A DNA stretch of 64,000 nucleotides from Bartonella sp. AR 15-3 (GTDB lineage Bacteria > Pseudomonadota > Alphaproteobacteria > Rhizobiales > Rhizobiaceae): contig NZ_MUYE01000001.1 in NCBI RefSeq assembly GCF_002022445.1, forward strand, positions 496,001 to 560,000. Direction: 5' to 3'. Shown piece by piece: positions 30,681-63,938 of the stretch. Within the stretch, counting starts at the first letter, position 1. Every line of letters begins with the position of its first letter. Under the pieces are notes generated by a model. The model was not told where the DNA came from. It searched no databases and was given only the letters and a program-made list of their open reading frames with translations. Position numbers and translations under genes: made by a program.

Positions 30681-31382
30681 AATCCAAAGCAGTGCAATTT
30701 CCATATAATGATCTATAGTTGAGGGGATTACTTTCAAATATAAAAAAATTATTGGGTGATGTGATTTTAAGATAGCGTTGCTATTTTAAGAAGAGAGGGT
30801 AATCTTTTCTAAGAATTTTATACTTATTGTCTTGTCTTGAAAAGTTATTTTTATATTTATAATAATTATTAATTCTTTTTAACAAAAAGACATAGAAAAG
30901 TTTAAAAAATCAATTGAAAAAGTAAAGATAGAAAAACATCACAGATTATAGAATAAGTTTGAAAATTCTACATCTTAATTTTGACTTTAGTTCTTTTATT
31001 TTAAAAAAGATTAAGCTATAAAAGTTCAAGAACTTATAAAAATGGAAAAACAATTCAAAAAAGATATCGATCCACGAAATCTTGTTAGAAGAAAGTATAA
31101 AATCCTAATTTCTGCATCTTTTTTTATATATAAAAGAATCTGGTGGGCGTGACAGGCGGCATAAAATTAATTAAAATCAAATACTTATTGTAAAAGTAAG
31201 GGATTCTATAGTTATTGATTTTATTATGTTTTTTTGGGGCTTATCCCTAACTTTTTTGGGATTTTTTTTTTATGACTTATATCTCAATTGTTTTAGCCTG
31301 TTGTGAAATAAAATTTATTAGTACGCTGCTTGATTCTTATTTCTATTGATCGTATAGTAATAGTATACGATAAGGAATGGTA
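30681..31382. other. Non-coding stretch before the prophage/toxin-antitoxin region
   Basis: About 700 very AT-rich bases without a credible gene. A weak hairpin with a long T run is at 31243-31272. AAGGA at 31372-31376 is the ribosome site of the following toxin gene. This is one possible place for the left prophage attachment site, but no direct repeat can be tested because the right end of the prophage is outside the window. Confidence 0.45.
31243..31272 (+). terminator. Possible weak terminator
   Basis: A five-base-pair stem ATCCC/GGGAT with a ten-base loop is followed by about nine T residues. The stem is short for a rho-independent terminator and no gene ends close by, so this is tentative. 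Confidence 0.3.
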
Positions 31383-32035: not shown

Positions 32036-33073
32036 CTAACTTTTTTGGAGTTTTTTGATTGATTCAAGAGCAAGTTTTTTACGATCAGCACTTTTTGTAT
32101 AAAGAGAGGCCATGTTATCATTTGTCCAGCCAAAAATTGCTTTGAGTTGTGAGACTGTAGCACCTGAATTTGCGGCACGTGTTGCTGCTAATTTTCTTAA
32201 ACCATGAGCTGATTTTTTAATACTTGCTGTATTACAAGCTTCTCTAAATAGATTGCCAAAGCTTTCTTTTGTTAATTTCTTATTACCTTTGCCGCAAATG
32301 AATGTTTCATCTCCGATAGGGCCAATTTTAAGAGTTTCTGCGAGCTCTGGTAAAATAGGGAGAAAAACATCTGTTTGGAATTTGCTTTTCTCTGTTTTAA
32401 GATGAATGATGTTATCTTTCACATCTTTCCAACCAATGCGCATGGCATCACCTCGTCGTAATCCTGTATAGAGAATAACATCAATCCAAACGCGTTCATG
32501 CGTACCATGAGGCCATTGCTTATAATATTTCTCTATATCCTCTTCTGTCCAAGCAGGAAATCCATCTTTGTTTTTGAGTGGAGGCCTTTTGATATTTAAA
32601 GTTGGGTTCTCATCTAAGAGGTTTTGCTCAATTGCCCACGTAAAAAGCCCATTGAGTGCTTTTAGAAAATTTCGAGCACTTGCTGGTGTTTCTTTACGTC
32701 GTTCGACTCCTGCTATGATATGTTTTTTGTTAATTGCTTTGTATGGGATACTTCCTACAGAATCACAAACTTTCATTAGAATGAGTTCTTTTTGCCTTTG
32801 TGTAGTTTTGGCTAAACTATACCAATTAACGCTATTAAAATATTGTTTAAGGAGCCATGCAAATGATCCTTCAACAAGTTTACCAGGTTTTGATTTAGGA
32901 AGTATAAGTCCTTGCAATTGAGCAATAGCTCTTTTGTAGTTATCAATAAATTCTTGTGCTCCGTAAGTCCCGTAGATTCTAACACGTTGTCCATGTCCAA
33001 TACGCACATACCATATGACTTTACCATGGCGTGTGATTTCCTTGACAAGGTGGGGAGGGCGTTGTTTGGGCAT
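32036..33073 (-). CDS. int: Phage integrase (tyrosine recombinase)
   Basis: Site-specific recombinase that inserts and excises the prophage. The 345-residue protein has an N-terminal arm/core-binding region and a C-terminal catalytic domain. The active-site residues are visible: Arg206 (YTGLRRGDAMR), His290 and Arg293 (HGLRKLAATRAA), Trp316 in the His/Trp position (GWTND), and nucleophile Tyr325 (SLYTKSAD). It is the last gene of the leftward early operon, nine bases beyond a small protein gene. No separate excisionase was recognised, though the small upstream protein is a candidate. Confidence 0.95.
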   Translation of the reverse strand: MPKQRPPHLVKEITRHGKVIWYVRIGHGQRVRIYGTYGAQEFIDNYKRAIAQLQGLILPKSKPGKLVEGSFAWLLKQYFNSVNWYSLAKTTQRQKELILMKVCDSVGSIPYKAINKKHIIAGVERRKETPASARNFLKALNGLFTWAIEQNLLDENPTLNIKRPPLKNKDGFPAWTEEDIEKYYKQWPHGTHERVWIDVILYTGLRRGDAMRIGWKDVKDNIIHLKTEKSKFQTDVFLPILPELAETLKIGPIGDETFICGKGNKKLTKESFGNLFREACNTASIKKSAHGLRKLAATRAANSGATVSQLKAIFGWTNDNMASLYTKSADRKKLALESIKKLQKS

Positions 33074-44783: not shown

Positions 44784-45119
44784 ATGACATCAGAAAATAC
44801 CACTCAGCCTCTTCAAGCACCACTTAAGAAGCGTATTCCTCCGAAGGCAGGGAGTGGTCGTGTCAAAGGTGTTCCGAATAAAATAACGCGTCTTTTGAAA
44901 GAAGCTGTGATTAAGGCTGCTGAGAATGCGGGCAATAAAATAGGAAATGATGGATTGGTCTCTTATTTAGAAAAGCAAGCTGTCAGCTGCCCAGCAGCTT
45001 ATTTAGCATTGCTTGGTAAGGTTTTACCGTTACAGGTTACCGGAGAGGACGGTGGAGCGATTAAAATGATAGGGCGCGTTGAAATAGCGCCTTTGGTTGA
45101 TGACCATAAGACAGATTAA
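44784..45119 (+). CDS. terS: Terminase small subunit-like protein
   Basis: An 111-residue protein with a basic N-terminal region (PLKKRIPPKAGSGRVKGVPNK) and helices, ending in an acidic/hydrophobic tail. It is directly upstream of, and overlaps, the large terminase gene, where the DNA-recognition subunit is expected. The GRVKGVPNK motif is common in small DNA-packaging proteins of Rhizobiales phages. ATG 44784 has GAGGG eight bases upstream; the GTG at 44775 is too close to it. The assignment is from position and size more than motif. Confidence 0.75.
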   Translation: MTSENTTQPLQAPLKKRIPPKAGSGRVKGVPNKITRLLKEAVIKAAENAGNKIGNDGLVSYLEKQAVSCPAAYLALLGKVLPLQVTGEDGGAIKMIGRVEIAPLVDDHKTD

Positions 45120-46425
45120 GATTGTTCCCAAGCTCATACCGATTTTTTCAGGAAGAGCAGCGGTGCGTGCGGCGTGGGGAGGACGAGGATCAGGGAAGAC
45201 AAGATCCTTTGCTTTGATGGCCGCTTTGAAAGGTTATCAATTTGGTATGGGAGGGATCTCTGGGACGATCCTTTGTGCGCGTCAGTTTCAGAATTCGTTA
45301 GCAGAGAGTTCCTTGGAGGAAATTAAGCGCGCTGTTGAAGCGCATGATTTTTTAAAGGATTATTATAAGGTTGGGGAGTCCACGATTAAGTCGAAGGATG
45401 GTCGAATATCTTTCCAGTTTTCAGGACTAGACCGGAATATAGCCAGTATCAAATCGATGGGTCGGATTTTGCTTTGTTGGGTTGATGAGGCAGAGCCTGT
45501 TACAGAGACAGCTTGGCAAACGCTGATACCGACTTTGCGGGAAGAGGGCGATGGCTGGCGTGCAGAGTTATGGGTGACATGGAATCCTTTACGTGAGAAT
45601 GCTCCTGTTGAGAGGCGGTTTCGTTTTTCAGAGAATGAAGGGATTAAGGGTGTTGAGATCAATTGGTCAGACAATCCGAAGTTTCCGCAGATATTGAATG
45701 AGGCACGTTTGGATGATCTTAAGAACCGTGCAGAGAGCTATCAGCATATTTGGGAAGGTGGTTATTTAAAAGCGGTTCAGGGAGCCTATTTCCAAAAGGA
45801 AATGTTGGCTGCCGAGCAAGAGGGTCGGATCGGGCGTGTTGCTCGTGATCCTCTGATGCAGCTCCGTGCCTTTTGGGATATTGGAGGGACGGGAGCGAAG
45901 GCAGATGCCACGGCGATTTGGATAGCACAGTTTGTTGGCAGAGAAATCCGTGTTTTGGATTATTACGAAGCACAAGGACAGCCGTTATCGGAGCATATCG
46001 GATGGTTGCGTCAGAATGGCTATGAGAAGGCACTGATGATTTTGCCACATGATGGTGCCACGAAGGATCGCGTGCATAATGTGAGTTTTGAGAGTGCCTT
46101 GAATGAGGCAGGTTTTGAAACGCAGGTTATTCCTAATCAAGGCCCTGGAGCGGTCAAGATGCGGATAGAGGCAGTGCGTCGTATTTTACCGTCTGTTTGG
46201 TTTCATGAAGAGACAACGGTTGGTGGCCGCAAGGCATTAAGTTGGTATCACGAAAAGTGGGATGACAAACGTGGCATTGGTTTAGGAGCTGAACATGATT
46301 GGTCGAGCCATGGAGCCGATGCTTTTGGCTTGATGTGCATCACCTATGAAGCGCCACGCATGAAGACACAGCAAAATCGTTATTACGCTATAGAAAGAGA
46401 AACAGCCTCATGGATGGCCTTTTAA
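45100..46425 (+). CDS. terL: Terminase large subunit
   Basis: ATP-driven motor and nuclease that packages phage DNA into the prohead. The product is 441 residues. The ATPase domain has Walker A WGGRGSGKTRS (about 27-37) and Walker B LLCWVDEAE (about 125-133). The C-terminal RNase H-like nuclease domain has FWDIGGTGAKADATAIWI and a later HGADAFGLM. It is of the PBSX/Terminase_3-6-like group. It overlaps terS by 20 bases and the portal gene by 16 bases. Confidence 0.95.
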   Translation: MTIRQIKIVPKLIPIFSGRAAVRAAWGGRGSGKTRSFALMAALKGYQFGMGGISGTILCARQFQNSLAESSLEEIKRAVEAHDFLKDYYKVGESTIKSKDGRISFQFSGLDRNIASIKSMGRILLCWVDEAEPVTETAWQTLIPTLREEGDGWRAELWVTWNPLRENAPVERRFRFSENEGIKGVEINWSDNPKFPQILNEARLDDLKNRAESYQHIWEGGYLKAVQGAYFQKEMLAAEQEGRIGRVARDPLMQLRAFWDIGGTGAKADATAIWIAQFVGREIRVLDYYEAQGQPLSEHIGWLRQNGYEKALMILPHDGATKDRVHNVSFESALNEAGFETQVIPNQGPGAVKMRIEAVRRILPSVWFHEETTVGGRKALSWYHEKWDDKRGIGLGAEHDWSSHGADAFGLMCITYEAPRMKTQQNRYYAIERETASWMAF

Positions 46426-48452
46426 AGAACGATAAAAAGAAAGCATATCTTGACGATTATGCACTCTATCGACGCTTAAAGTCTTGGTATGCTGAAGATA
46501 TTAAGCCTGTTAATGAATGGCGGGAACAAGCGCGTGAAGACTTTGATTTTTACAATGGTCGTCAGTGGGCAGAGGAAGATCTTGCGGTTTTAAGAACGCA
46601 ACGGCGTCCTGTGATGACCTTTAATCGGATAGCGCCTTTGGTGAATGCGATTGTTGGAGCGGAGCGGAATAATAAGCGAGAAGTACAGTTTCAACCGCGG
46701 CAAGTTGGTGCTGCAATCCCCAATGAATTGCTAACGGGAGCAGCGGAATGGTTTCGAGATGAAGCGGAAGCTGAATATGCAGATTCCGATGCTTTTCAAG
46801 ATATGATCATTTGTGGCATGGGATGGACGGATACACGTTTGGATTATGAAACAAATCCGGAAGGTGTGCCCACAGTTAGGCGTTTAGATCCGCTAAAAAT
46901 GGTTTGGGATGCGAATGCTGTGAGGTCGAATTTGGTTGATGCGCAGCGCTTGTGGTATGTGGATCGCAAATCCATTGAGGATGCTAAAAATCTTTTTCCT
47001 GATATGGCTTTAGAAGATCTGAATGCGGACTGGTCTGTAGAGGGTGCTGTGGGTTCTGAAGATTACCCTGTATCGCTTGATGCCTATAGCGATCCTCACA
47101 CTGGAGGCTTACCGTTTTCAGAAAAGCGGTTTGTGACCCTTGTTGAATGTCGTTGGTTTGAGTATGAGACTTATTATAAGGCACCGGATCCCCAAACGGG
47201 TCAGATGCGCGATTATAGCCAACAAGAGTTTGAAGAGCTTCAGACTGTTCTGCCTGAACTCCAAGGAGCTCGCTTTCAGAAGAAAATTGTCAAGCGCGCT
47301 TTTCTTGGCCGTCGCCTTTTAGCAAAGCCGGATCGACCTTTAGCGCCTGACGGACAGCTGGGGTGGGAATGTATTACAGGCACATTGGATAAGCTTAAGA
47401 ACCAATTTTACGGGATTGTTCGTCCTGCAAAAGATCCGCAAAAATGGTCTAATAAATATTTTAGTCAGGTGATGTATATCCTCAACAGCCAATCCAAAGG
47501 CGGTTTGATGGCTGAACGCGATGCTTTTGACGATGAACGTCAGGCTTTGGACAGTTGGTCGCGAACGGATGCGATCACATGGCTGAAGAATGGAGCTTTG
47601 ACCAATGGAAAGATACAGCCGAAGCCGAGTGCGCAGTTTCCTTCGGGTTTTTTCCAGTTATTTAATGAATCGCGTGAGGCCATCACGCATGTTACAGGAT
47701 TATCTGCTGAGTTTATAGGGACCAGGGAGGTTAATCAAGCGAATGTCCTGGAAAATACCCGCCGACAATCCACATTGAATTTGCTTGCCAGTTTATTTGA
47801 TAATCTCAAGCTTTACCGTTGCAGGCAAGGAAAAATTATTCTTTATTTGATCCAGAATTATCTTTCTGATGGTCGTTTAGTACGGATTTCTGGTCCTGAG
47901 AATGCTCAGTATGTTCCGTTAACGCGTGAAGCTGTGACAAGTCTTGAATACGATATTATTGTTGATGACTCTCCGACCAGTCCGAATGAAAAAGAGAAAA
48001 CTTTTGCAGCGATTACTCAGATGTTACCGTTGCTTGGTGGTTTTTTAACACCGGAGATGATCCCCGATCTTCTGAAGCTTTCACCGTTACCCGCTACGCT
48101 TGTGGCGAGTTTAACGGCCAAGGCACAGCAGGCACAGGAACAACAGCAGCAACAGCAGATGATGCAACAAAACCAGGGGCCACAGTTAAGTCCAGAGCAA
48201 CAAGCAAAGATTGCAGCTTTACAGCAGGAAACACAGGCAAAAAGCACTCTCTATCACCTTGATGCACAGCAGAAACAAGCTGCCTTACAGCAGAAAAATA
48301 TTGAGCTTTTCTTGAAGCAGGAACAAGCGCGGATGCAGCTTGAGCTTCAAAGAGCCAAGAATGCGCTAGCGCAGCGTGATTTAGAGCGTAAAGCATTACA
48401 AGCACAGTCAGAACAGTATCGTGCTGTAACTAGAAGAGCAACAATATATTAA
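46410..48452 (+). CDS. P22-like portal protein
   Basis: The portal forms the dodecameric ring through which DNA enters and leaves the capsid. The 680-residue product has features of P22-type portals: EWREQAREDFDFYNGRQW near the N-terminus, PVMTFNRIAPLVNAIVGAERNNK (in part), and GLSAEFIGTREVNQANVLENTRRQ later. A Gln-rich C-terminal barrel/coiled region follows (about 560-680). Its length matches long podovirus portals rather than short siphovirus ones. It overlaps terL, and the scaffold gene follows 11 bases on. Confidence 0.92.
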   Translation: MDGLLKNDKKKAYLDDYALYRRLKSWYAEDIKPVNEWREQAREDFDFYNGRQWAEEDLAVLRTQRRPVMTFNRIAPLVNAIVGAERNNKREVQFQPRQVGAAIPNELLTGAAEWFRDEAEAEYADSDAFQDMIICGMGWTDTRLDYETNPEGVPTVRRLDPLKMVWDANAVRSNLVDAQRLWYVDRKSIEDAKNLFPDMALEDLNADWSVEGAVGSEDYPVSLDAYSDPHTGGLPFSEKRFVTLVECRWFEYETYYKAPDPQTGQMRDYSQQEFEELQTVLPELQGARFQKKIVKRAFLGRRLLAKPDRPLAPDGQLGWECITGTLDKLKNQFYGIVRPAKDPQKWSNKYFSQVMYILNSQSKGGLMAERDAFDDERQALDSWSRTDAITWLKNGALTNGKIQPKPSAQFPSGFFQLFNESREAITHVTGLSAEFIGTREVNQANVLENTRRQSTLNLLASLFDNLKLYRCRQGKIILYLIQNYLSDGRLVRISGPENAQYVPLTREAVTSLEYDIIVDDSPTSPNEKEKTFAAITQMLPLLGGFLTPEMIPDLLKLSPLPATLVASLTAKAQQAQEQQQQQQMMQQNQGPQLSPEQQAKIAALQQETQAKSTLYHLDAQQKQAALQQKNIELFLKQEQARMQLELQRAKNALAQRDLERKALQAQSEQYRAVTRRATIY

Positions 48453-48463
48453 AGGAACAAAAG

Positions 48464-49357
48464 ATGGAAGAACAATTGACGCCAGAAGAACAAGCGATTT
48501 ACGATGCACAAGCTAATGATTATTCTGTTGAGCTTGTTGAGCCTGAGCAAGTGATTGACACGATTGAATCGCATGAGAATTCTGAACAGGTGTTCGATGA
48601 ACAGCCTCAGAAACCGTATGATTATGAAGCGATAGAACAGGAGAGACAAGCCCGCCAAAAGGCAGAGCAAAGTGCTGAAGAAGCACGTGAGCTTGCTATT
48701 GAGATTGCGCAGCAATATGCTGCTATGCAGGAAGAAATTGCTCAACAGTATGATAAAAATGTCCCGACTTTAGAAGATGATCCTAAAGCGCATATCGCCT
48801 GGCTTAGCCATAAAGTGCAAGAACAACAGAAATTGCTGAATGAGTTTTCTGTTATGAGAGAGGAGCAGGAGCGTATAAATCAAGAGCACTATGAAAGGCA
48901 GCAATTAGGGGCTTATTTTGAAGAAGCCAAGGCCCAGGTTCAAGACAAATATCCAGATTTAGACAATATCACAAATTATCTCTATGAGATTGCCGATAAT
49001 TCATTAAAAGCGCAAGCAAGTCTCTACCCCCAATGGGAAGATCCTGCACTGAGACAGCAGCAAATTGGTGCTGAATTACGCCAAATCTGCCAGCAGTGCC
49101 AAAAATCGGGTTTTAACCCCATCGAGGTGCTTGTGCAAAAGGCAAAAGCTTTTGGCTATAGTGGTCCCCAGAACAAGAATGAAGTTGAAGCTCTCCAAGA
49201 GCGTAACACAGCAGCGCGGACCTTAGCTGCGCGTGGTGGACAGGTTCCCTTAGGCGGTGTTGATATAAGAACACTCTCTTCCATGTCGGAAGCTGAGTTA
49301 GCTGCATGGGTTGAGAAGAATCAAGAAAAATTTGAACACATCATGGACAGGATGTGA
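48464..49357 (+). CDS. Scaffolding-like capsid assembly protein
   Basis: A 297-residue, highly acidic and Gln/Glu-rich protein with long coiled-coil helices (about 50-150) and no globular motif. It sits between portal and major capsid genes, the place of scaffolding proteins that shape the prohead and are then removed. The C-terminal region (RTLAARGGQVPLGGVDIRTLSSMSEAELAAW in part) contains the short conserved-looking motif seen in similar phage proteins. AAAGGAAC precedes the ATG. The role is inferred from position and composition. Confidence 0.82.
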   Translation: MEEQLTPEEQAIYDAQANDYSVELVEPEQVIDTIESHENSEQVFDEQPQKPYDYEAIEQERQARQKAEQSAEEARELAIEIAQQYAAMQEEIAQQYDKNVPTLEDDPKAHIAWLSHKVQEQQKLLNEFSVMREEQERINQEHYERQQLGAYFEEAKAQVQDKYPDLDNITNYLYEIADNSLKAQASLYPQWEDPALRQQQIGAELRQICQQCQKSGFNPIEVLVQKAKAFGYSGPQNKNEVEALQERNTAARTLAARGGQVPLGGVDIRTLSSMSEAELAAWVEKNQEKFEHIMDRM

Positions 49358-49448
49358 AGAGATGCGCAGTGGTGCAGAAGAGATAACCAAGTGGTTGCTT
49401 GGTTATGCCGCAAGGCTCATTTAAAAACCAAGAAAGGTATTTTTTGAA

Positions 49449-50564
49449 ATGGCAACAACAAACGTAAACATTAATAGTCCCTTAGCTGTTCAGATTTGGG
49501 CTAAGCTGCTTAACGCAGAAAGCTCAAAAGCAACACCAATAGCTCCTCTTATGGGAAAAGATAAAAATAATGTCATCCAAGTTTTGGAAGGCTTGAATAA
49601 AACAGCGGGTGATTCAGTCACGAGTGGACTGCGTGTTCAGCTTATGGGAGCTGGTGTTACCGAAGGGCAAACGCTGGAAGGAAATGAAGAGGGGCTTCAA
49701 TTTATGAATGAAACAGTGCGGCTCAATGAGCTTTCTCATGCTGCGCGTGTTAAATATGAAGGAACAATTGATCAACAACGTGTTCCGTTTAATTTGCGTG
49801 CAGAAGCAAAGACTGGACTTGTTGATTGGTATGCTGATCGACTGAGTATGATGTTCTTTATCCAGGCTACTGGATATACAGCTCCATGGATGAAGTTTGA
49901 GGGTCGTACAACGACGATAGAACCAGTGCATTATGGTTTTAATGCGCCATTGGAGCCCAGTAAATTGCGCGTTATTCGCCCAGGAAAGAAAAAGGCTGAT
50001 GAAGAACTCACAAAAGAAGATAAGTTTACATTATCTCTTATCGATGATGCTGTGGAACGTGCGAAATTGGCTAATCCTAAAATTAGACCGGTGCGTGTCA
50101 ATGGAGAAAGTGTCTATGTGGTGTATCTTCACCCAAAACAGGTGACACAATTGCGCACGAATACAGATGCTGGCCAGTGGCTTGACATTACCAAAGCGGT
50201 TTATAGTGGAAGCCGCGCTAAAAACCCCATTTTTGATGGTTCGTTGGGCATGTATAACGGTGTCATTTTACGGGAGTCCGAACATGTTCCTCATGGTGTT
50301 CATTCAAAAACGCAAGAGCCTGTTCTTTCTGTTCGTCGCGCTGTTTTGCTTGGAGCGCAAAGTGTGATTATGGCTTATGGTCATAGTAAGGGTAAAACGC
50401 GTTATCATCTTGTAGAGAAATTGTTTGACTATGAACGCGAATTTGGCATTGCTGCCAAAACCATTATTGGGATGAAAAAGTCACGTTACACGTTGCCTCA
50501 TTCTGAGCAAGGAGGGCAAGATTTTGGCACGATAGTTCTCCCATCTTTTTCTGAAGCCCTATAA
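49449..50564 (+). CDS. Major capsid protein, N4-gp56 family-like
   Basis: Main shell protein of the virion. The 371-residue product begins MATTNVNINSPLAVQIWAKLL. It contains GDSVTSGLRVQLMGAGVTEGQTLEGNEE and VYVVYLHPKQVTQLRTNTDAGQW (in part), then AVLLGAQSVIMAYGH, matching the N4-gp56-like capsid family found in podoviruses. No N-terminal cleavage domain is obvious. AAAGGTATTTTTTGAA before the ATG carries the ribosome site. The 90-base gap upstream has no gene. Confidence 0.9.
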   Translation: MATTNVNINSPLAVQIWAKLLNAESSKATPIAPLMGKDKNNVIQVLEGLNKTAGDSVTSGLRVQLMGAGVTEGQTLEGNEEGLQFMNETVRLNELSHAARVKYEGTIDQQRVPFNLRAEAKTGLVDWYADRLSMMFFIQATGYTAPWMKFEGRTTTIEPVHYGFNAPLEPSKLRVIRPGKKKADEELTKEDKFTLSLIDDAVERAKLANPKIRPVRVNGESVYVVYLHPKQVTQLRTNTDAGQWLDITKAVYSGSRAKNPIFDGSLGMYNGVILRESEHVPHGVHSKTQEPVLSVRRAVLLGAQSVIMAYGHSKGKTRYHLVEKLFDYEREFGIAAKTIIGMKKSRYTLPHSEQGGQDFGTIVLPSFSEAL

Positions 50565-50594
50565 AAATATTGAGCACATAAAGAGGATTAAATT

Positions 50595-51026
50595 ATGGAA
50601 AAGAAACACTCCCTCGCACGTTCATCTTTTGATGGTGCTGAGACAACGGATGATGGAATGCCGATCGCTTTACAAGGTCGGAATCTCCATACACAACAAG
50701 TCAGTTTTTTTCGGACTCGGATTAAACATACCGATCGTGGCCTTACAACACAAGTTGGTATTTTGCCTCGAGATGCTTTCATTAAGAGCATCAGTGTTTA
50801 TACGCTTAGCGATTTTAATGGCGCAACAGCAAAGTTTGGAAAAAAACCTCATGACAGTGATTATGGCACAGCAACGCTGGCGACCTCTGGTGTTGAAGAG
50901 CTTGATTTGCCTCTCACTGTGCGAAACGTTCCGTTAGAATTTGAAAACACGATTTACGTTACACGAGATAAGACAAGTACCCAAGGGGAGGCTGAAGTCA
51001 TTGTTGAGTTTTACACAAATCGTTAA
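50595..51026 (+). CDS. Capsid-associated hypothetical protein
   Basis: A 143-residue, beta-rich protein beginning MEKKHSLARSSFDGAETTDDG and containing GILPRDAFIKSISVYTLSDF and ENTIYVTRDKTSTQGEAEVIVEFYTN. It follows the capsid gene by 30 bases, the usual place of head decoration or stabilising proteins. Small all-beta composition fits that role, but no family is recognised. AGAGGATT precedes the ATG. A strong hairpin follows its stop. Confidence 0.72.
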   Translation: MEKKHSLARSSFDGAETTDDGMPIALQGRNLHTQQVSFFRTRIKHTDRGLTTQVGILPRDAFIKSISVYTLSDFNGATAKFGKKPHDSDYGTATLATSGVEELDLPLTVRNVPLEFENTIYVTRDKTSTQGEAEVIVEFYTNR

Positions 51027-51030
51027 AAAA

Positions 51031-51057
51031 GGGGGACGTTTGCTCCTTTCGTCCCCC
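51031..51057 (-). terminator. Strong hairpin after the capsid genes
   Basis: Perfect eight-base-pair stem GGGGGACG/CGTCCCCC with an 11-base loop. The T run needed for termination lies on the minus-strand side (TTTTTT after CCCCC). On the plus strand there is no U tract, so for late mRNA it may act as a partial terminator or a 3'-end stabiliser of capsid messages. No minus-strand gene is near. Confidence 0.6.
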
Positions 51058-51076
51058 GAAATTCTTGAAAGCATTG

Positions 51077-51775
51077 ATGATGGCAATAACGATACAGACC
51101 AGTGGTCCGATTGAAGAAAAAGGTACCTTTGTTCCGCGTAACAAAAACTTTATTCAGATGTTAAAGGACATTCAAGATGAAATAGATGATCAAACCGATG
51201 AATATATAGATCAAGTACAGAAGGCGATCTTTTCTGCACTTCGGTTTTGTGAACGCTTGCCCTTTTATTTTAATGAAAGCCGTGAGGTTGTTTTTACGAC
51301 TTTAAGGGGCAAAAATCGTTATGGAAGGGAGGTCAGTCCCTTTATTGCAGAGGCTGTTCAGATTGTTGATGTTTATCTTTATAAGCATTCCCATAAGTTC
51401 AAGCTTTTGCAGACAGACCCGATCATGCTTGAAAGCTCTGAGAATGAATTGGATCGTGGTATCCCAACACGTTATGCCTATTTTGAACAAAAGCTTGTCT
51501 TGTCTCCAATCCCAGATGATGCTTACTCCATACGGCTTATTCTTAATCCCATGAGAATAAAAGAGATCGAGACTATGCAAGAGGATTCCATCTGGTTTTT
51601 GGAAGCGTATGAGCTTATCAAAACGCGGGCGAAGTACGAACTTTATACGAACATACTCAAAGAACCACAAATGGCTGCAGCGGCTTTTGCGATGTTTCAG
51701 GAACAATTAGAAGCCCTGACCATCGAGACTTCACGACGTAAAAACTTATTTCAGATACAACACACAGATTTTTGA
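51077..51775 (+). CDS. Head-tail adaptor-like protein
   Basis: A 232-residue, largely helical protein (from ATG 51077; ATG 51080 is equally possible). It has an N-terminal region with IQDEIDDQTDEYIDQVQKAIFSALRFCERL (in part). A beta region and a C-terminal helix pair (AYELIKTRAKYELYTNILKEPQMAAAAF in part) follow. Size, place after the capsid genes and the 'EAYELIKTRAKY' motif match gp6/SU10-type adaptors that join portal to tail. It overlaps the next gene at TGATG. Confidence 0.75.
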   Translation: MMAITIQTSGPIEEKGTFVPRNKNFIQMLKDIQDEIDDQTDEYIDQVQKAIFSALRFCERLPFYFNESREVVFTTLRGKNRYGREVSPFIAEAVQIVDVYLYKHSHKFKLLQTDPIMLESSENELDRGIPTRYAYFEQKLVLSPIPDDAYSIRLILNPMRIKEIETMQEDSIWFLEAYELIKTRAKYELYTNILKEPQMAAAAFAMFQEQLEALTIETSRRKNLFQIQHTDF

Positions 51776-53235
51776 TGACTTTTATTCCTATTGCTGAATT
51801 TCGGCCAGACATCGCCTTTATTAATAGTGGCTATTCGAATGAGATCGTAAATGTTTTGCCTGCTCCTCAGTCCTATATTCCATTTCCAATGGTTGCACCG
51901 GCATCGGATCCTTTTCCTGATGTTATCTTGGGTGTTTATGCTCTACGGTCCTTAAATGGTGTGCGGATTATCATAGGTTCACCGACAAAGCTGTATGAGT
52001 ATAACAATAGTACGCGTGGATGGAAAGATATCAGCAAGCCAGGGACTGAATATCATGCGAATGAAAACGCGCCATGGTCTTTTGCTTCTTTTGGAGAGCA
52101 TATCATTGCTGTTAATAGCAACGATGTTCCTCAAAAGCTTGTGCTGAAGATGGATGAAAAGTTTGATGATTTAGGCGGCAATCCCCCACGTGCGGGTCTT
52201 GTTCGTGTATGGGGAGATTTTGTTTGCTTGATGAAGCTGACCGATAAGCCCAACCGTGTTCAGTGGTCTGGATTGAATGATGCTGAATGGTGGACTGTTG
52301 GTGAAAAGAATTGCGACTATCAAGATTTTCCCGATGGGGAATATGTTCAAGGCTCAACGGAAGCGACCAATCCGCTTATTTTTATGCGCTCGGCTATCTA
52401 TCATGCAACATTTGTTCCGGGCTCTAAAATTATCTTCAGCTTTGCCAAGATAAAAGATAAAATGGGGGCTAAAAGCAGTACGGCTATTGCAAGTCGTGGC
52501 AACAACACTTTTTTTATTTCTGATGATGGTTTTTACCAGATCAACAGTACAGGAGAAATGGTTCCTATTGGTTTTGGTAAAGTGGATAAAACCATTTTTA
52601 CACTCTACAGTAATTTTGCTCTTGATGAGATGAAAGCGTGTATTGATCCCATCTATTCACGGGTTTATTTCTCTCTTTATGATGACATTGCAGGAAGCAG
52701 TATCTATGTTTATGACTGGCTGCTCCAAATCTGGAGTGTTATTAAGGGACAGGATCTCCTTTTATTTCCTCTCTTTGCAGCGGGTTATACATTGGAAGGT
52801 TTAGACGAAGTCTCAGAGCGCCTTATAGATTTACCCGCTTCCCTTGATAGTAAGATGTGGCAAAATGGCGCACCGGTGTTGGGAGCTTTTACTGAAGACA
52901 ATAGATTTGGGCTTTTTGCGGGAGCACCGATGGAAGCAGTGATTGCTTCACAAACGGTAGGAGACACAGGAAGACAGATCAATTTAATGACGGAAGCCTT
53001 TGTTCAAGCGGACACAATAAAAGGTCGTTTAAGTGTTGGCTCTGCATTTATCATTGATAAGAGAAATAAGTTAAACTGGGACAAAGAACGCTATGCGGCC
53101 TATAATAATAATGGGATGTACACTCTTCGGTCTCGGGCCCGTTATCACGCTTTGCGTCTTAGAATTCCAGAAGGGACCCAATGGACTCATATGACGGGTT
53201 TTGATGTGACGCTTAAACCCGCAGGCATAAGATGA
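51775..53235 (+). CDS. Tail hub/packaged-DNA stabilisation protein (P22 gp10-like)
   Basis: A 486-residue beta-rich protein. It has repeats suggestive of a beta-propeller (VNVLPAPQSYIPFPM, TKLYEYNNSTRGWKDIS, WSFASFGEHIIAVNSNDVPQ, RVQWSGLNDAEWW). In P22-like phages the protein after the adaptor is the hub (gp10) that plugs the portal and holds the tailspike. The sequence similarity is at the level of pattern, so gp10 is inferred. ATG 51775 overlaps the upstream stop; the 3' end overlaps the next gene by four bases. Confidence 0.75.
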   Translation: MTFIPIAEFRPDIAFINSGYSNEIVNVLPAPQSYIPFPMVAPASDPFPDVILGVYALRSLNGVRIIIGSPTKLYEYNNSTRGWKDISKPGTEYHANENAPWSFASFGEHIIAVNSNDVPQKLVLKMDEKFDDLGGNPPRAGLVRVWGDFVCLMKLTDKPNRVQWSGLNDAEWWTVGEKNCDYQDFPDGEYVQGSTEATNPLIFMRSAIYHATFVPGSKIIFSFAKIKDKMGAKSSTAIASRGNNTFFISDDGFYQINSTGEMVPIGFGKVDKTIFTLYSNFALDEMKACIDPIYSRVYFSLYDDIAGSSIYVYDWLLQIWSVIKGQDLLLFPLFAAGYTLEGLDEVSERLIDLPASLDSKMWQNGAPVLGAFTEDNRFGLFAGAPMEAVIASQTVGDTGRQINLMTEAFVQADTIKGRLSVGSAFIIDKRNKLNWDKERYAAYNNNGMYTLRSRARYHALRLRIPEGTQWTHMTGFDVTLKPAGIR

Positions 53236-53660
53236 ACTTTAAGATTTATAATACGGAAAAATGGAGTGCGGACCAGATGGCACCCTATTTTGATCCTGTC
53301 TTAAAATCCATTGTTAGCTTTAACAAGAAGTTTGCTGAGGATTACGCTCCAGAGACTATTTTAAATGATATTTTGAATGGCGATAAAATTCTTTGGATTA
53401 TTGTTGATGCGCATGAAAATTTTATGGCTCATGTCACAACAGAATTACAGAAACTCATCACAGGAACCCTGCGCGCTGTTATTGTAACGCTTAGCGGAAG
53501 AGGCGGAAAACACTTAAGCCAGGTTATTCCTCAGATTGAAGCTTATTATAAGGAAAAGGGAGCGAAAGAGCTTCTTATCATAGGCCGGCGTGGATGGAAA
53601 AAATCTCTTCAATCGCATGGCTACGTCGTTAATCTTTTAGAATATAGAAAGCAGCTTTAA
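53232..53660 (+). CDS. GNAT-like phage protein
   Basis: A 142-residue product with a possible GNAT-like fold. An N-terminal helix pair is followed by strands ILWIIVDAHENFMAHVTTEL and LRAVIVTLSGRGGKHLSQVIPQIE, where SGRGGKHLS resembles the acetyl-CoA phosphate-binding loop. KELLIIGRRGWKKSLQSHGY is like the end of GNAT domains. Similar small proteins lie between hub and ejection genes in N4/P22-like phages, with unknown target. The ATGA overlap links it to the hub gene. Confidence 0.7.
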   Translation: MNFKIYNTEKWSADQMAPYFDPVLKSIVSFNKKFAEDYAPETILNDILNGDKILWIIVDAHENFMAHVTTELQKLITGTLRAVIVTLSGRGGKHLSQVIPQIEAYYKEKGAKELLIIGRRGWKKSLQSHGYVVNLLEYRKQL

Positions 53661-53661
53661 C

Positions 53662-54693
53662 ATGGGGAAAAGTACCAAACCCACTCAGACAACAACACAA
53701 ACAAGTGCCCCCCCTCAATGGGCGCAAGGGATTTTTAAGCAAGCCGCTCAGGATGCCATGAATTTCTATAATAAAGGCAGTGGAAAGGCTGTTTATGACG
53801 GTGAGCGTGTCACAGGTCTCAGTGATCAAACAAAGAATGCGATCAATGGGCTTAACAATACTGCTCAGAACTATGAGAATAGTTATTTGAATGGATTGGC
53901 GACAGGACAAAATTCAACCAGTAAAAACTTAAGTGAGATGGCTTCTGGCCAACAAATAGGGAATAACCCTTACTTTAATGATGCGCTTCAAAATGCGTTA
54001 AACAAAGCGACGAATTCCATTAACAGTTCCTTGGCGGGTGCTGGTCGTTATGGTTCTGGTGCCCATACAGGGGTTCTTGCAAATGAATTAGGGGGCATGG
54101 CAACCCAAGCGTTATCGCAGCAATATAACCAAGATGTCAGTCATATGATGAATGCCAATGGTTTAATCGATCAAGCGAACCAAAATCAATTGGCCGGGGC
54201 GAATAACTTTTTTCAAGGGCAAGGTCAGTCCAATATGAATGCTTTGACGGGAGGAAGTTTGATTGATGCCAATAATCAACAAAAATTAGATGCAGAACGA
54301 CAAAAATGGGAACAACAGAATAATCTTGATTGGGATCATTTAAGTAAGTTGCTTTCAGCTGGAGGCGCTGCTGCTGGAGGCTATGGAACACAAACATCGC
54401 TTACACAGCAAAAACAAAATCCTTGGAAAATTCTTGGAAACGCTGGAAGCATTCTTGGAAACTGGGCTGGGCTTAGTGATGTGCGGGCAAAAGAAAACAT
54501 TATCGCAGTGGGACAGAAAAATGGTCATAAGCTTTATGATTATAACTACAAGGGTTATCCCGAGCGCTATCGTGGTGTCATCGCGCAAGAGGTTTTTCAA
54601 GCAAATCCTGAGGCCGTTTTTTTGAACACTGCTACAGGCTTTTTGCATGTTGACTATAACAAGCTTGGCTTTACCATGGAAAGGGTTTTGTGA
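53662..54693 (+). CDS. Ejection-type virion protein with S74-like C-terminal domain
   Basis: The 343-residue product is Gly/Asn/Gln-rich in its first 240 residues, with helices typical of DNA ejection proteins. The C-terminus (about 270-335) reads GLSDVRAKENIIAVGQ then YNYKGYPERYRGVIAQEV, the pattern of the peptidase S74 intramolecular chaperone domain (Ser-Asp-x-Arg with a Lys-Glu). S74 domains usually end trimeric tail spikes and cleave themselves off, so its use on an ejection-type protein is unusual. The role is inferred from position and composition. Confidence 0.75.
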   Translation: MGKSTKPTQTTTQTSAPPQWAQGIFKQAAQDAMNFYNKGSGKAVYDGERVTGLSDQTKNAINGLNNTAQNYENSYLNGLATGQNSTSKNLSEMASGQQIGNNPYFNDALQNALNKATNSINSSLAGAGRYGSGAHTGVLANELGGMATQALSQQYNQDVSHMMNANGLIDQANQNQLAGANNFFQGQGQSNMNALTGGSLIDANNQQKLDAERQKWEQQNNLDWDHLSKLLSAGGAAAGGYGTQTSLTQQKQNPWKILGNAGSILGNWAGLSDVRAKENIIAVGQKNGHKLYDYNYKGYPERYRGVIAQEVFQANPEAVFLNTATGFLHVDYNKLGFTMERVL

Positions 54694-58866: not shown

Positions 58867-59687
58867 TTCATCCTAACGTTAAGTCTGCGATTTCTCAGGC
58901 AGCGCAGAAGTATGGTTTACCGGAAAGCTTTCTTCAGCGGGTGGCCATGATAGAAAGTAATGGTAATCCCACTGCACAAAATAAGAACAGTAGTGCAGGA
59001 GGGTTGTATCAATTTTTAGATTCAACAGCCGAGCAGTATCACTTAAAGAATAAGTTTGATCCCTTTGAAGCAACGGATGCTATGGCGCGATTGACGAAGG
59101 ATAATACGCGTTATTTGCAAACAGCTTTGGGGAGAGCTCCTTCAGAAACAGAGCTTTATTTAGCGCATCAACAAGGTCCAGCAGGGGCTGCCAGATTGAT
59201 TAAAAATCCCACGCTTCCTGCAGGACAGCTTTTAGGTCAACAGGCGGTAACATTGAATGGTGGACAGATGAAAAACACGGCAAGTGATTTTATGAATCAT
59301 GTTTATCAGCTTTATAACAAAACGGGTGCTGCTTCAAATATGATGACGCATTCACAGCAAGAAAGAGCTTCACAAGGAATTGAGAGATTTCAAAAAGCGA
59401 TTGAGGGTGATCAATCCCTGATGAAGAACACACCTTCTTTTAAAAACGGTTTAATGAAACTCGCTGACTTAATGAAACAGAGTGCAGAGATATACAATAA
59501 GGAAGAGCAGAGGGCACAGCAGCAACCCAGCATGAGAGGGGGGATGCAGTTTGGCACCCGTCCTCCTATAGATTTAACACCGTTAATTGATCCCTCAAGG
59601 CGGCAGTTTGCTGCTTTTTCTGGCCAGCAAAGAGATAAGCACTCACGAGAAGAATTATTAAAGAGAGGAGGGGTTTATCATGTCTGA
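58863..59687 (+). CDS. Virion lytic transglycosylase
   Basis: Probably opens the peptidoglycan locally during DNA injection. The 274-residue protein has an SLT domain at its N-terminus. The catalytic Glu is in VAMIESNGNP (about residue 30), followed by SSAGGLYQFLDSTA and ELYLAHQQGPAGA, all family motifs. The C-terminal part is helical and Gln-rich. No signal peptide is present, which fits a protein delivered inside the virion. It overlaps its neighbours by four and eight bases. Confidence 0.9.
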   Translation: MIHPNVKSAISQAAQKYGLPESFLQRVAMIESNGNPTAQNKNSSAGGLYQFLDSTAEQYHLKNKFDPFEATDAMARLTKDNTRYLQTALGRAPSETELYLAHQQGPAGAARLIKNPTLPAGQLLGQQAVTLNGGQMKNTASDFMNHVYQLYNKTGAASNMMTHSQQERASQGIERFQKAIEGDQSLMKNTPSFKNGLMKLADLMKQSAEIYNKEEQRAQQQPSMRGGMQFGTRPPIDLTPLIDPSRRQFAAFSGQQRDKHSREELLKRGGVYHV

Positions 59688-60660
59688 TATTTATGACTGG
59701 TCGCTTACAGCTGATGCCAATGCACACTCAGATGATTTGATCAATTGGGCAGAAGGTCAGCCACCAAGTTCTGTTAACGACAGTGCACGGGCGATGATGC
59801 AACGTGTGCGGGAATATCTCGCAGATAATGGGGGATCTCTTCATTCGGTTTTTAATGTGAATGATCAGGAAAAGACAACATCCATTACGCTGACGACGGT
59901 TTCTCCAATAACGATGTATAAAAATGATCTTATTCTGCGTTTTAAGGCTTGTGGCGTCAATATTGGTCCGACAACACTCACAGTGAACAACATAGGAGAG
60001 AAGCCTGTTTACAAAGCAACGGATGCTGGTGTTGTCTCCTTAGAGGGTGGTGAATTACAAGCGGGCGGTATTTATGAAATCGTTTATAGTGAGGATGCTT
60101 CAAAAAAAGATCTTGATGGCTGGTATTTAATCAATCCTACACCCAAAACTCCGCCCCAGGTAAAAAGCTTTCCTGCTGGTTTTGTCGCGACATTTGCTAT
60201 GCAAGACCTCCCGGGTGGTTGGCTTCTCTGTAATGGTGCTGTTTATAAGCGTAGAGATTATCCAGACTTATTCAAAGCTATAGGGGTTCAGTGGGGGAAA
60301 GACAGTGATGAAACCTTTAAAGTTCCCGATTTTAGAGGAATGTTTTTGCGTGGCTTTGATGATGGTCGTGGCTTAGATAGCAAAAGAACATTTGCTGAAA
60401 TGCAGAAAGATAGCATCAAATCGCATACCCACAATTGCACTATTGAAAAATCAGGCAGACATAACCACGGGTTTGATTATTATTCCATTATGGAAGGGGG
60501 GCCTAATGTTGGTGCAAGAAATCCAGCTTATAGGACTACCTACAGAAGAAGTGCGACAGATTCTGCTGGTGAACATACACATAAGGTCAGTCTTTCTTCA
60601 ACAGGTGAGACAGAAACCCGTCCTGTGAATGCAACGGTTGTTTATGCCATAAAATCATGA
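59680..60660 (+). CDS. Tail fibre/collar domain protein
   Basis: A 326-residue product. The N-terminal part begins DIYDWSLTADANAHSDDLINWAEGQPPSSVNDSARAMM (in part), a common start of phage tail proteins. A beta domain follows (about 60-150). A phage tail collar domain contains VATFAMQDLPGGWLLCNGA and YPDLFKAIGVQWG and FKVPDFRGMFLRGFDDGRG (about 167-230), ending with His-rich strands that can bind metal in trimeric tips. It is likely part of the receptor-binding apparatus. Confidence 0.9.
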   Translation: MSDIYDWSLTADANAHSDDLINWAEGQPPSSVNDSARAMMQRVREYLADNGGSLHSVFNVNDQEKTTSITLTTVSPITMYKNDLILRFKACGVNIGPTTLTVNNIGEKPVYKATDAGVVSLEGGELQAGGIYEIVYSEDASKKDLDGWYLINPTPKTPPQVKSFPAGFVATFAMQDLPGGWLLCNGAVYKRRDYPDLFKAIGVQWGKDSDETFKVPDFRGMFLRGFDDGRGLDSKRTFAEMQKDSIKSHTHNCTIEKSGRHNHGFDYYSIMEGGPNVGARNPAYRTTYRRSATDSAGEHTHKVSLSSTGETETRPVNATVVYAIKS

Positions 60661-60669
60661 AGTTTTTGA

Positions 60670-60924
60670 ATGTTTAATCATCCCTCTGCTATTGATGATA
60701 TTACTGACGCGGAGCAAATCCGCGTTCTTTTTTATGCCAGTCATAGAATAGTTCATGCACCGTTAAATAAGATCATCGCTATGATTAAAAAGGATGTTCA
60801 GCATGATCTTTCCAGTGCTTTTATGGAGCAGCAAAAAGCAACAGATGAACGCCTGGAAACTCTACAAAAAATGATCGATGAGTTACGTTTGCAGTGTTCC
60901 CCTTCCACACCCCCTCAAAAATGA
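60670..60924 (+). CDS. Small coiled-coil phage protein
   Basis: An 84-residue protein with EQIRVLFYASHRIVHAPLNKIIAMIKKDVQ (in part) and a C-terminal coiled coil (EQQKATDERLETLQKMIDELRL). It lies between the collar protein and the large adhesin. It may be a fibre chaperone or connector; no family is recognised. The next gene starts 19 bases after it. Confidence 0.65.
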   Translation: MFNHPSAIDDITDAEQIRVLFYASHRIVHAPLNKIIAMIKKDVQHDLSSAFMEQQKATDERLETLQKMIDELRLQCSPSTPPQK

Positions 60925-60943: not shown

Positions 60944-63034
60944 ATGCCTCTTCCACACCATACACATACATTTACGCTTGAACCAGCAACCAAAGAAGAA
61001 GTCAAAGAAGGTCTTTCAGACAGTAAGGCTCTTGCCCCTGTTTCAGTAGGCAGTGCAGCAGCTTATTCTGTCAATTATTTTGCAACCGCTGCTCAAGGCA
61101 AAAAGGCCGATGATGCCGTTGCTAAGAGAGATATTGGGGCCCTTGCTTACAAAGATAAAGCCACAGTTTATGATATAGAAGCCAGCGGTTATCCTGGTGA
61201 AGAGACGCTTTTATCCGGGGCTGGTTGGGTCACACCATCCTCTTTAGAGGTTGGTGATATGAAAGCCTCACTTTATGACCCAGACAATATCAGGTTAAGT
61301 GCGTTTTCGATGGAAAATATGAGTGAGGGTCCTACAAAAAAGATTTTGTCTGAGGAAGAAAGATTAAAGTTGCAGTGGCTTAGTTCTTTGGGTCCCACGA
61401 TAGAAAAGTGGCATGCAGGCGATGAGGGGATCAACTATCCTATTTCGCCTGTTGATCTGAAAAATACCATCCATTACTTTTCGTTGTCGAAGTCTCTTGG
61501 GATGTCAAAGTCGGTCTATGATCCACAAAAAGTGGGCAAAGATGCTTTTGATATGGACAATATGCGAGAGGGAGAGAAGCATTTTATCTTAACAGCTGAA
61601 GAGCGCATACAGATAGCAGAGATTGAGGCGATTAAAGAAGGCATTCATGATGCCAAAGAGACAGCGGAATGTGGGGTTCATACAGCTCATGAAGCAAAAG
61701 AAGCTGCGGACAGCGCATTAAGTATAGCAAAGGGTGCAGAAACTAAAGCTGTGGATGCACAAACTACGGCTCAAGGATGTGCGAGTATTGCAGGTGAAGC
61801 AAAGGAAACTGCTGAGAGCGCTTTCAATAGAGCGGAGAAAGCAGAAGTTCATGCTTCAGAAGCACAAGCTATTGCTACTATTGCACAAAGTACAGCTCAG
61901 GATGCACAAGATTCCATCAGTACTGTGAAAGAAACAGCTGATAAAGCGAAAGAGACAGCGGATAAGGTGCAGGAAAAAGTTGATCTCATGCAAGCTTTTG
62001 AACAGCAAGACTGGATTAATGGCACCAAAACAGAGGGTGGTCTAATCTCACCGGTTCATCTCCTCGCTTCGATACAAGCACATAGCAGCAATAGCAGCGG
62101 CGGTGGGAGTTGTAGTTGTAACGGAGCTCTGAAACCGATTGAAATTTTGATGACAGAAAGTGGAGAGATCCCTTGGCCAGAAGGTATTACTGATGAGACA
62201 GAACTTGAAATATGGGCTTGGGGAGGAGGCAATGCTGGGGTTAGTAGTTCTGTTGGCTGTGGTGGTGCTGGTGGTTGTTGTACATACGTAAGAACAAGGA
62301 AAAAGTTTCTTGGCAAGAGTTCAGTGAAAATTGGAAGAGGAGGAAGGACTGATGATGATCATGGTGGCAGAGAAACAAAAGTTGGTCAATTTATTATAGC
62401 TCTTGGTGGAGCCTCATTACAACCTCATCAAACAGGTGGATTTGACGGTGAAAATGCTGAACTTGGTGCTGGTGGTGATGGTTTTCTTGGCGGCAATGGC
62501 GGTAATGGCGGTTTGGGTGGTAAGGGCGGTGATAACGGCGGTCGTGGTGGTCATGGTGGTGATAATTTTTTATCCAATGGTGGTAAGGGCGGTAACGGTG
62601 GTTTGCCCATTAACAAAGGTAATTGTGGTAATGGCGGTGATGGTGGTGATAGTGTTTATGGTGGAGGAGGGTTAGGGGGGATGGGTGGTAATGGTTTTCG
62701 TGGCGGCAATAGCGGTAATGGCGGTTGGGGTGGTAAGGGTGGTCGTGGTGGGAGTAGTATTTATGGCGGCGGTGGTGGCGGCGGTCGTGGCGGTCGTAGC
62801 GGTGGTAATGGCGGTGATGGTGGTGATAGTATTTATGGCGGCGGCGGCGGCGGTGGTGGTCATGGCGGCGGTCGTGGTGGTAATGGTGGCGGTAGCATGT
62901 GGGGCGGTAAGGGTGGTCGTGGTGGTAATGGTGTTGGCGGTGGCGGTGGCGGTTATTTTCCTGGAAAAGATGCAACGTCCTCATCTAGTGGCGATGGTGG
63001 CGATGGCGCCGTATTAATCAAGGTTTACTTATAG
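60944..63034 (+). CDS. Tail adhesin with coiled-coil stalk and polyglycine-rich tip
   Basis: A 696-residue product from ATG 60944 (AAGGA upstream; an earlier ATG at 60878 lies inside the preceding gene). Residues about 1-230 are fibre-like. About 230-370 form an Ala-rich coiled coil with repeated ETA-type heptads. A domain with EIWAWGGGNAGVSSSVG (about 425-445) opens the tip. About 500-680 consist almost only of GG-x repeats with short inserts (SIYGGGG, SMWGGKG), ending GDGGDGAVLIKVYL. This is the layout of glycine-rich receptor-binding tips such as phage S16 gp38 polyglycine-II sandwiches. Host-range determinant by inference. Confidence 0.82.
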   Translation: MPLPHHTHTFTLEPATKEEVKEGLSDSKALAPVSVGSAAAYSVNYFATAAQGKKADDAVAKRDIGALAYKDKATVYDIEASGYPGEETLLSGAGWVTPSSLEVGDMKASLYDPDNIRLSAFSMENMSEGPTKKILSEEERLKLQWLSSLGPTIEKWHAGDEGINYPISPVDLKNTIHYFSLSKSLGMSKSVYDPQKVGKDAFDMDNMREGEKHFILTAEERIQIAEIEAIKEGIHDAKETAECGVHTAHEAKEAADSALSIAKGAETKAVDAQTTAQGCASIAGEAKETAESAFNRAEKAEVHASEAQAIATIAQSTAQDAQDSISTVKETADKAKETADKVQEKVDLMQAFEQQDWINGTKTEGGLISPVHLLASIQAHSSNSSGGGSCSCNGALKPIEILMTESGEIPWPEGITDETELEIWAWGGGNAGVSSSVGCGGAGGCCTYVRTRKKFLGKSSVKIGRGGRTDDDHGGRETKVGQFIIALGGASLQPHQTGGFDGENAELGAGGDGFLGGNGGNGGLGGKGGDNGGRGGHGGDNFLSNGGKGGNGGLPINKGNCGNGGDGGDSVYGGGGLGGMGGNGFRGGNSGNGGWGGKGGRGGSSIYGGGGGGGRGGRSGGNGGDGGDSIYGGGGGGGGHGGGRGGNGGGSMWGGKGGRGGNGVGGGGGGYFPGKDATSSSSGDGGDGAVLIKVYL

Positions 63035-63714: not shown

Positions 63715-63938
63715 TTTTTCTGGGAAAAAAATATTTTGCAGTGATGATGGCGGTTTTAACCGCTTTTTTTATAGCTTTAATGAGGGTTTTTCGTTTGGGT
63801 AAGAAGACTGAACGGCACAAACAAAGAGAGAGCATAGTCAAAAGAGCAATAACACGGCTGGAAATAGAAAATGAAGTTAATAAGAAAAATGATGCCGATG
63901 TGCGTGCTGATCTCTCTGAGTGGGTGCGCGACAAATAA
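63711..63938 (+). CDS. Inner-membrane spanin-like protein (Rz-type)
   Basis: A 75-residue protein with one N-terminal hydrophobic segment (about 8-24, YFAVMMAVLTAFFIALM) followed by a basic, charged helical domain rich in Arg, Lys and Glu. This is the layout of i-spanins that disrupt the outer membrane at the end of lysis. It overlaps the endolysin stop by four bases. The o-spanin frame starts inside it at 63871, as in lambda Rz/Rz1. It is short for an i-spanin, so the assignment rests on context. Confidence 0.8.
   Translation: MIFLGKKYFAVMMAVLTAFFIALMRVFRLGKKTERHKQRESIVKRAITRLEIENEVNKKNDADVRADLSEWVRDK

Follow-up and report, generated by a model that had tools for sequence, protein, structure and literature searches.

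A probable tail fibre gene of a Bartonella prophage with a heptad-stepped stalk and a predicted polyglycine-II tip

Polyglycine-II adhesins are best known from lytic phages. Their described design, in which a helical shaft leads through a beta domain to a polyglycine-like lattice at the distal end, is exemplified by gp24, the tail fibre of the cyanophage myovirus Pam3 (excerpts of PMC9608196), and the gp38 proteins of the T-even-like phages S16 and PP01 are its cap-type counterparts (excerpts of PMC6851490 and PMC12892980). TFP_Y of Klebsiella phage SCNJ1-Y can be likened by description, since the available portion of PMC12671077 presents a Pam3-like fibre that is reported to recognise LPS as trigger and whose glycine-rich domain is hit by host-adaptation mutations.

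The Bartonella fibre reported here shares with Pam3 gp24 the single chain, the conserved stems and the variable segments between them; a helical shaft, a beta domain (TNF-like in Pam3) and a distal glycine-rich lattice are predicted for it. Unlike Pam3 gp24, its shaft is a long alanine heptad coil of variable length, its tract is richer in glycine (55% vs. 39%), and it resides in a prophage; no gp25-like trimeric chaperone, as found beside Pam3 gp24, was recognised among the scanned neighbour genes. Common to S16 and PP01 gp38 are the polyglycine-II sandwich, predicted in our case, and variable loops, which presumably lie at the receptor end here too, whereas gp38 is a separate protein with a beta-helix that caps gp37 and a single Bartonella ORF encodes the tip together with its anchor and stalk. 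The initial annotation had noted a resemblance to polyglycine-II receptor-binding tips, and the anatomy indeed matches that of the known adhesins as excerpted from PMC12892980 and PMC9608196. By analogy, the Bartonella fibre probably works like Pam3 gp24 and gp38; sequence searches do not show such kinship. Literature searches of open-licence full texts returned, among the matches listed and in the portions retrieved, no description of this fibre, which is likewise absent from the retrieved parts of PMC3610622, PMC10684924 and PMC11080155. New are the long heptad-stepped stalk, the exchange of tip classes on a constant anchor, the tract-length differences between near-identical copies and the host group.

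The analysed window is a 64,000-nucleotide stretch of the Bartonella sp. AR 15-3 genome, and the fibre gene sits near the right end of an intact-looking prophage of ~33 kb in a Bartonella tRNA-Val. A 17-bp attL core (31140..31156) is identical in 17/17 positions (E 0.023) to the attR core, which is located just outside the window (window coordinates 64249-64265) at the 3' end of the tRNA-Val gene (minus strand; mapped at L070:2250-2324). A 16-bp match elsewhere had an E value of 0.082, and the 17-bp match is read as the att core because of its place at the tRNA end. The identity marks likely att cores and a prophage length of about 33 kb. The element comprises integrase, annealing protein, terminase, portal, head, ejection and lysis genes, e.g., the integrase at 32036..33073 (minus strand; phrog_1, E 2e-42) and, on the plus strand at 45097..54693, the genes for the terminase large subunit, the portal, the major head protein, a virion structural protein and a DNA ejection protein (phrog_3717, phrog_156, phrog_334, phrog_3287 and phrog_4287), interspersed with genes of unknown function. 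The portal and ejection proteins are presumably of the P22-like, short-tailed kind, and the phage is probably short-tailed.

Two tandem repeats were observed in this region, one of 111 bp with 1.9 copies and 90% matches (55558-55765, within the unknown-function gene 54690-56486) and one of 33 bp with two copies (38486-38551, within the primosomal-protein gene 38034-39254). A second major head protein gene of the same genome (G000:C1:1265448-1266566; 66% identical) indicates the presence of another related phage element. A second copy of the fibre gene, degraded and with many stops, is found at G000:C1:283855-285102.

In 13 named loci and 10 viral contigs, two sets that overlap in part, the genes follow one order (SLT protein, collar fibre, 84-aa ORF, present fibre, endolysin, spanin), with the SLT protein and the spanin each absent once at a contig end. 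In the window, the syntenic second tail fibre protein with a Tail Collar domain (59680..60660, plus strand; PF07484, E 1.4e-18) is followed by the 84-aa ORF between the two fibre genes (60670..60924, plus strand; phrog_23103, function unassigned), and the endolysin (63049-63714, plus strand; PF00959, E 2e-48) and the Rz-like spanin (63711-63938, plus strand; phrog_1026, E 7e-9) lie downstream. The 84-aa ORF is present in 13/13 named loci (L038-L050) and 10/10 viral contigs (L055-L064), i.e., in 23/23 with some loci counted twice, and as a fragment in two of the six distant loci L032-L037; one may guess at a candidate accessory of fibre assembly.

The fibre gene is an open reading frame encoding 696 residues (60944-63034, plus strand). 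An in-frame ATG is also located at 60878, but position 60944 is preceded by an AGGA site (by eye) and is the start common to the orthologues; in the majority of these, a stop precedes it by no more than a few codons. The protein begins with a constant anchor (residues 1-221; 60944..61606, plus strand, end at 61606) that measures 221 residues in 27/28 loci and 215 in one. On the same strand follow the Ala-rich heptad coiled-coil stalk (residues 222-354; 61607..62005), a linker (residues 355-396; 62006..62131), the tip beta core with strands in the models (residues 397 to about 505; 62132..62458), the Gly tract (residues 506-683; 62459..62992) and a C-terminal strand (residues 684-696, DGGDGAVLIKVYL, plus the stop; 62993..63034) that is conserved in alignments and corresponds to strand E293-299 of the tip model. 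The anchor shows weak similarity to 23 records of phage tail fibre, minor tail and hypothetical proteins (best E 2e-9), mostly from Rhizobiales phages, none with 80% coverage; a search of the phage collection with the whole fibre gave one matching record. The anchor is inferred to dock the fibre on the phage tail, and the gene would encode the tail fibre, probably trimeric, of a temperate Bartonella phage.

Some match to the fibre was found in 60/71 Bartonella genomes, in many of them to the tip or the anchor alone. The set of 28 loci used throughout consists of ORFs whose match to the anchor begins close to its first residue and extends past residue 200; anchor-broken copies are therefore absent, and three pairs with identical anchors are included. 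Within this set the reading frame is broken in the tract in G041b, G038 and vinsonii and in the beta core in massiliensis, and the koehlerae and G029 loci contain stretches of N; outside the set, the ORF of L061 (IMGVR_UViG_2751185855_000003) is interrupted in the anchor, with stalk and tip open in one frame. These breaks, together with the degraded fibre copies elsewhere in the window genome, would fit a decaying prophage and fibre in which both the tract differences and the frame breaks represent relics or errors of assembly. We regard such decay as unlikely, given that 22/28 loci, the window among them, read through in a single frame without N, albeit in a set chosen for an open anchor, that the anchor has a low dN/dS (0.024/0.222 for the closest pair), and that structural, lysis and att parts are all present.

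That the protein has an Ala-rich coiled stalk, as initially annotated, is borne out by an alanine content of 25% over residues 225-346 and by a match to Pfam Alanine_zipper above the curated cut-off (23.5 vs. 23.1 bits; best stretch residues 225-281). The window stalk of 133 residues represents 19 heptads. Taken as the distance between the conserved anchor end and the DWI[DN]G motif, which is conserved too, stalk length is divisible by 7 in 28/28 loci (42, 49, 56, 84, 91, 98, 105, 126, 133, 161, 196 or 259 residues). Two further loci, measured afterwards, have stalks of 70 residues each, which makes 30/30 multiples of seven with 13 lengths ranging from 42 to 259; the stalk of the degraded copy L080 is not measurable and lies outside the 30. 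There are 22 distinct stalk sequences among 27 rows, and at least 15 changes of stalk length are needed on the anchor tree (7/22 inner branches well supported). These sequence comparisons support a heptad coiled coil whose register matters, and the whole-heptad steps in length presumably serve to preserve the register of the helix at either end. No report of heptad-stepped fibre stalks was found among the matches listed in literature searches.

Multiples of seven could also arise by unequal recombination of 21-bp repeats without any selection on register. This is suggested by the similarity of the heptads of which the stalk is made and by the differences between near relatives, which are large in-frame blocks of 189, 357 and 147 bp, all multiples of 21. 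The rule holds, however, between diverged stalks as well and across the at least 15 length changes. Stray 3-bp indels would be expected if they were tolerated, yet the rule holds, so that selection is favoured and a purely mutational origin of the steps appears plausible without being probable; it concerns the stalk alone and is compatible with the best explanation of the tip.

Glycine accounts for 98/178 residues (55%) of the tract. The initial annotation had described about 180 residues of GG-x repeats on a long, slippage-prone, microsatellite-like stretch of GGT/GGC DNA. A Gly-rich tract of 178 residues does exist, but the GG-x pattern is loose, with strict GGx runs of at most five units and a 3-residue Gly period that is not significant (p 0.077, 2000 shuffles). 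On the DNA level, 91/98 tract glycine codons are GGT or GGC, compared with 224/452 in twelve other ORFs of the window, and the G+C content is 0.57 vs. 0.38 for the window. To speak of a microsatellite would overstate the case: the tract is degenerate, the longest GGY-only run spans eight codons and the longest identical-codon run five, no exact direct repeat exceeds 29 bp (copies at 62625 and 62802), and TRF detected arrays of about 2-3 imperfect copies and nothing longer. Nor do long G runs support the original wording: the window gene contains one run of five or more G vs. 9.4 expected from the codon use of the other window ORFs (0/2000 draws as low). The depletion recurs in four relatives and in one of three class II tips (0 vs. 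3.8 expected; for the tip classes, see below) and is lacking in three relatives of the G041/G038 clade (7, 12 and 12 vs. 9.6-10.0 expected); it may merely reflect descent from GGY units. Two tract breaks represent a one-base difference in a run of G relative to a near copy, and both fall in the G041/G038 clade, the one without depletion. Tract-specific phase variation by G runs was considered and is not proposed, as assembly error is possible and other breaks are located in the beta core (massiliensis) and the anchor (L061).

The short aromatic inserts and the conserved-looking end pointed out in the initial annotation hold across relatives. DNFL, [VI]Y, SMW and GYFPG anchors occur in conserved order, six in a row, in 9/9 class I tips examined; the third is S[VI]Y in six tips and SMW in three, and one tip has a seventh match. 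The end GAVLIKVYL is found in 17/18 aligned tips and GAILIKVYL in the remaining one. An alignment of eight class I tips, from which phoceensis (a near copy) as well as koehlerae, G029, vinsonii, massiliensis, G038 and G041b (with N or broken) were left out, has a mean identity of 0.80 without gaps in the 60 columns up to six positions from an aromatic anchor, and of 0.36 with a gap fraction of 0.32 in the 98 middle columns. In a rotation control with a window of eight columns and anchor columns counted, the contrast was reached in 0.014 of 2000 draws, a control that is partly circular because the anchors were picked as conserved motifs and that allows few distinct rotations. The eight class I tips show variable, gapped loops in alternation with conserved stems that bear aromatic turns.

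The fold of the tip was predicted with AlphaFold2 as a monomer from seven class I tip sequences (mean pLDDT 50, pTM 0.56), in which ten-residue blocks of the Gly tract have pLDDT values of 30-76 and most of the class I beta core lies at 24-50. In VIA, a second look at 265 chains ranked by Foldseek, 115 residues of the model (tip 133-257, blocks 48-76) fit the nine-helix springtail antifreeze protein 7jjv (Z 16.9, rmsd 1.6) and 79 residues align to the snow flea antifreeze protein 2pne (Z 9.6/9.4), a likeness of fold alone to proteins of unrelated function and organisms. Scores were lower for the Bxb1 tail tip (Z 5.0), the Pam3 fibre (Z 3.1) and PP01 gp38 (Z 2.6), and S16 gp38 was not among the matches listed. 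Foldseek itself gave weak PDB matches (best E 2.9e-3, probability 0.33). Further rows at Z of about 2-4, galectin, TCR and ALK among them, were not taken as kinship, nor were the weak Foldseek rows; an ALK likeness is also reported for Pam3 gp24 in the excerpts of PMC9608196. PDB sequence searches, which handle Gly-rich sequence poorly, gave one weak row (E 0.17) with one tip profile and none with the other.

The snow flea antifreeze protein was probably part of the AlphaFold2 training set, and a model bias towards the polyglycine-II fold is therefore possible. The class II tip model has some good beta-core blocks (76-85) and others at 29-60, so that its beta core is better modelled than that of the window's own tip. 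With the Pam3 fibre, Z values of 3.1 and 3.8 were obtained in two comparisons. Its Gly-rich part remained unmodelled (22-26); the program hence does not assign polyglycine-II to every Gly-rich stretch, a contrast that is weak as a control given the shallow class II alignment (88-95% identity). The structure prediction proposed with the initial annotation gave a bundle, as judged from VIA (Z 16.9 over 115 residues), but with a tip mean pLDDT of 50 and aligned blocks of 48-76. Most of the Gly tract is predicted, with moderate model confidence, to fold as a polyglycine-II bundle.

Alternatively, the tract might be a flexible or disordered spacer whose Gly-rich DNA resizes neutrally, the beta core alone binding the receptor. 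The low overall pLDDT and the unmodelled Gly-rich part of class II would suit a spacer, as would the rattimassiliensis/ML70 pair, in which the tract is less diverged than the anchor, and another pair with equal dN. The aromatic anchors in conserved order in 9/9 tips, alternating with variable loops, and the strong match of the modelled tract to solved polyproline/polyglycine-II bundles speak against this explanation, which we consider improbable.

A second kind of tip occurs at the same orthologous position. Class I, the type of the window with its long Gly tract, is found in 15/28 loci and class II in 13/28. The 11 class II tips that were aligned have 214-215 residues and share 88-95% identity with the first of them. 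At least five changes of tip class are required on the anchor tree, at least four of which are forced by well-supported branches; two tip classes share one gene position and appear to have been exchanged about five times. Pfam Gly_rich_2 (PF21722) matches 11/11 class II tips (best E 4.1e-9, the first over the cut-off) and 2/7 class I tips (best E 4.6e-4), and in the genome search the class I orthologue of G029 exceeded the cut-off. The window tip matched neither Gly_rich_2 nor any other family at E up to 1, and a search of the phage collection with the class II tip gave no match.

The window genome also encodes a 472-aa fibre of another type that has a class II-like glycine-rich tip (L072:3688-5106; G000:C1 around 383.7-385.1 kb). 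This tip starts at the same KPVEILMTESG motif (by eye) and reaches 22.4 bits with Gly_rich_2, below the cut-off; fibres of this type share DNA stretches of 80-110 bp (80-84% identity) with the present type. A recombinase and TnpB-like pair (by eye), which we take to be IS607-like, is located nearby at L072:1690-3506. Locus L023 (G025) has a tandem duplication of 151 class II tip residues relative to B1099 (identical by eye).

Divergence along the gene is uneven. Counted per 300 bp, the window and Bartonella sp. G70 differ by 18, 19, 14, 28 and 26 substitutions as far as position 1500, by 80 and 81 within the tract and by 28, 48 and 38 beyond it, with five tract indels in the DNA alignment and six in the protein alignment. 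Both rates are raised in the tract (dS 0.68, dN 0.27) relative to the anchor (dS 0.22, dN 0.02), a pattern that suggests recombination or import in addition to relaxed constraint. Eight pairs were compared; they are not independent, and aligning their tracts is difficult. The tract exceeds the anchor in dN in seven of them (once 0.068 vs. 0.067) and in dS in six, rattimassiliensis/ML70 being an exception for both; indels number 0 in the anchor, 10 in the stalk and 23 in the tract. The ratio dN/dS of the tract exceeds that of the anchor in all five class I pairs and not clearly so in the class II pairs. The data do not show positive selection on the tract, its dN/dS being below 1 in 8/8 pairs (0.10-0.41). 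The B. rattimassiliensis and B. phoceensis copies differ by three substitutions in 3.2 kb and by one in-frame 9-bp tract unit (the other gap is the end of the compared stretch). The comparison of tract length and inserts among isolates, suggested at the outset, hence revealed a length difference between near-identical copies. The idea of a quickly varying tip is upheld as regards indels, whole-tip exchange and the higher tract dN in 7/8 pairs, but not in the sense of a dN/dS above 1.

Taken together, we favour, with a probability of roughly three in four, a temperate-phage fibre with a constant anchor, a heptad stalk and a polyglycine-II tip for receptor contact that is diversified by indels, recombination and tip replacement. 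The alanine coiled coil would form a stalk whose length changes by whole heptads. From the beta core, the chain is predicted to run out and back several times as polyglycine-II helices and to return so that the last strand closes the core. The conserved aromatic turns would lie at the helix ends that probably face the beta core, and the variable segments halfway between them would sit at the distal end, where, to judge from gp38 and Pam3 gp24, these loops may contact a cell-surface receptor, either an outer-membrane protein or LPS, and might thereby influence host range, as the initial annotation had proposed. This contact might be diversified by Gly-rich units being lost or gained in frame, to which the differences seen by comparison point, by recombination within the tip and by whole-tip swaps to the second class. 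More speculatively, the gene could be a two-part diversification device in which an adjustable-ruler stalk, changed by heptads only, keeps the coil register and an exchangeable polyglycine tip cassette is drawn from a pool shared with unrelated fibres of the same genomes and resized or switched off by changes of G runs or Gly units; we find this extension rather doubtful.

With respect to Bartonella, no phage receptor was named among the matches listed in literature searches. The two tip classes on one anchor represent a natural experiment on receptor choice, and the thirteen natural stalk lengths in 30 loci offer existing material for asking if infection is limited by the length of the fibre or by the register of the helix. 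The fibre would extend polyglycine-II adhesins to temperate phages of an animal-associated genus.
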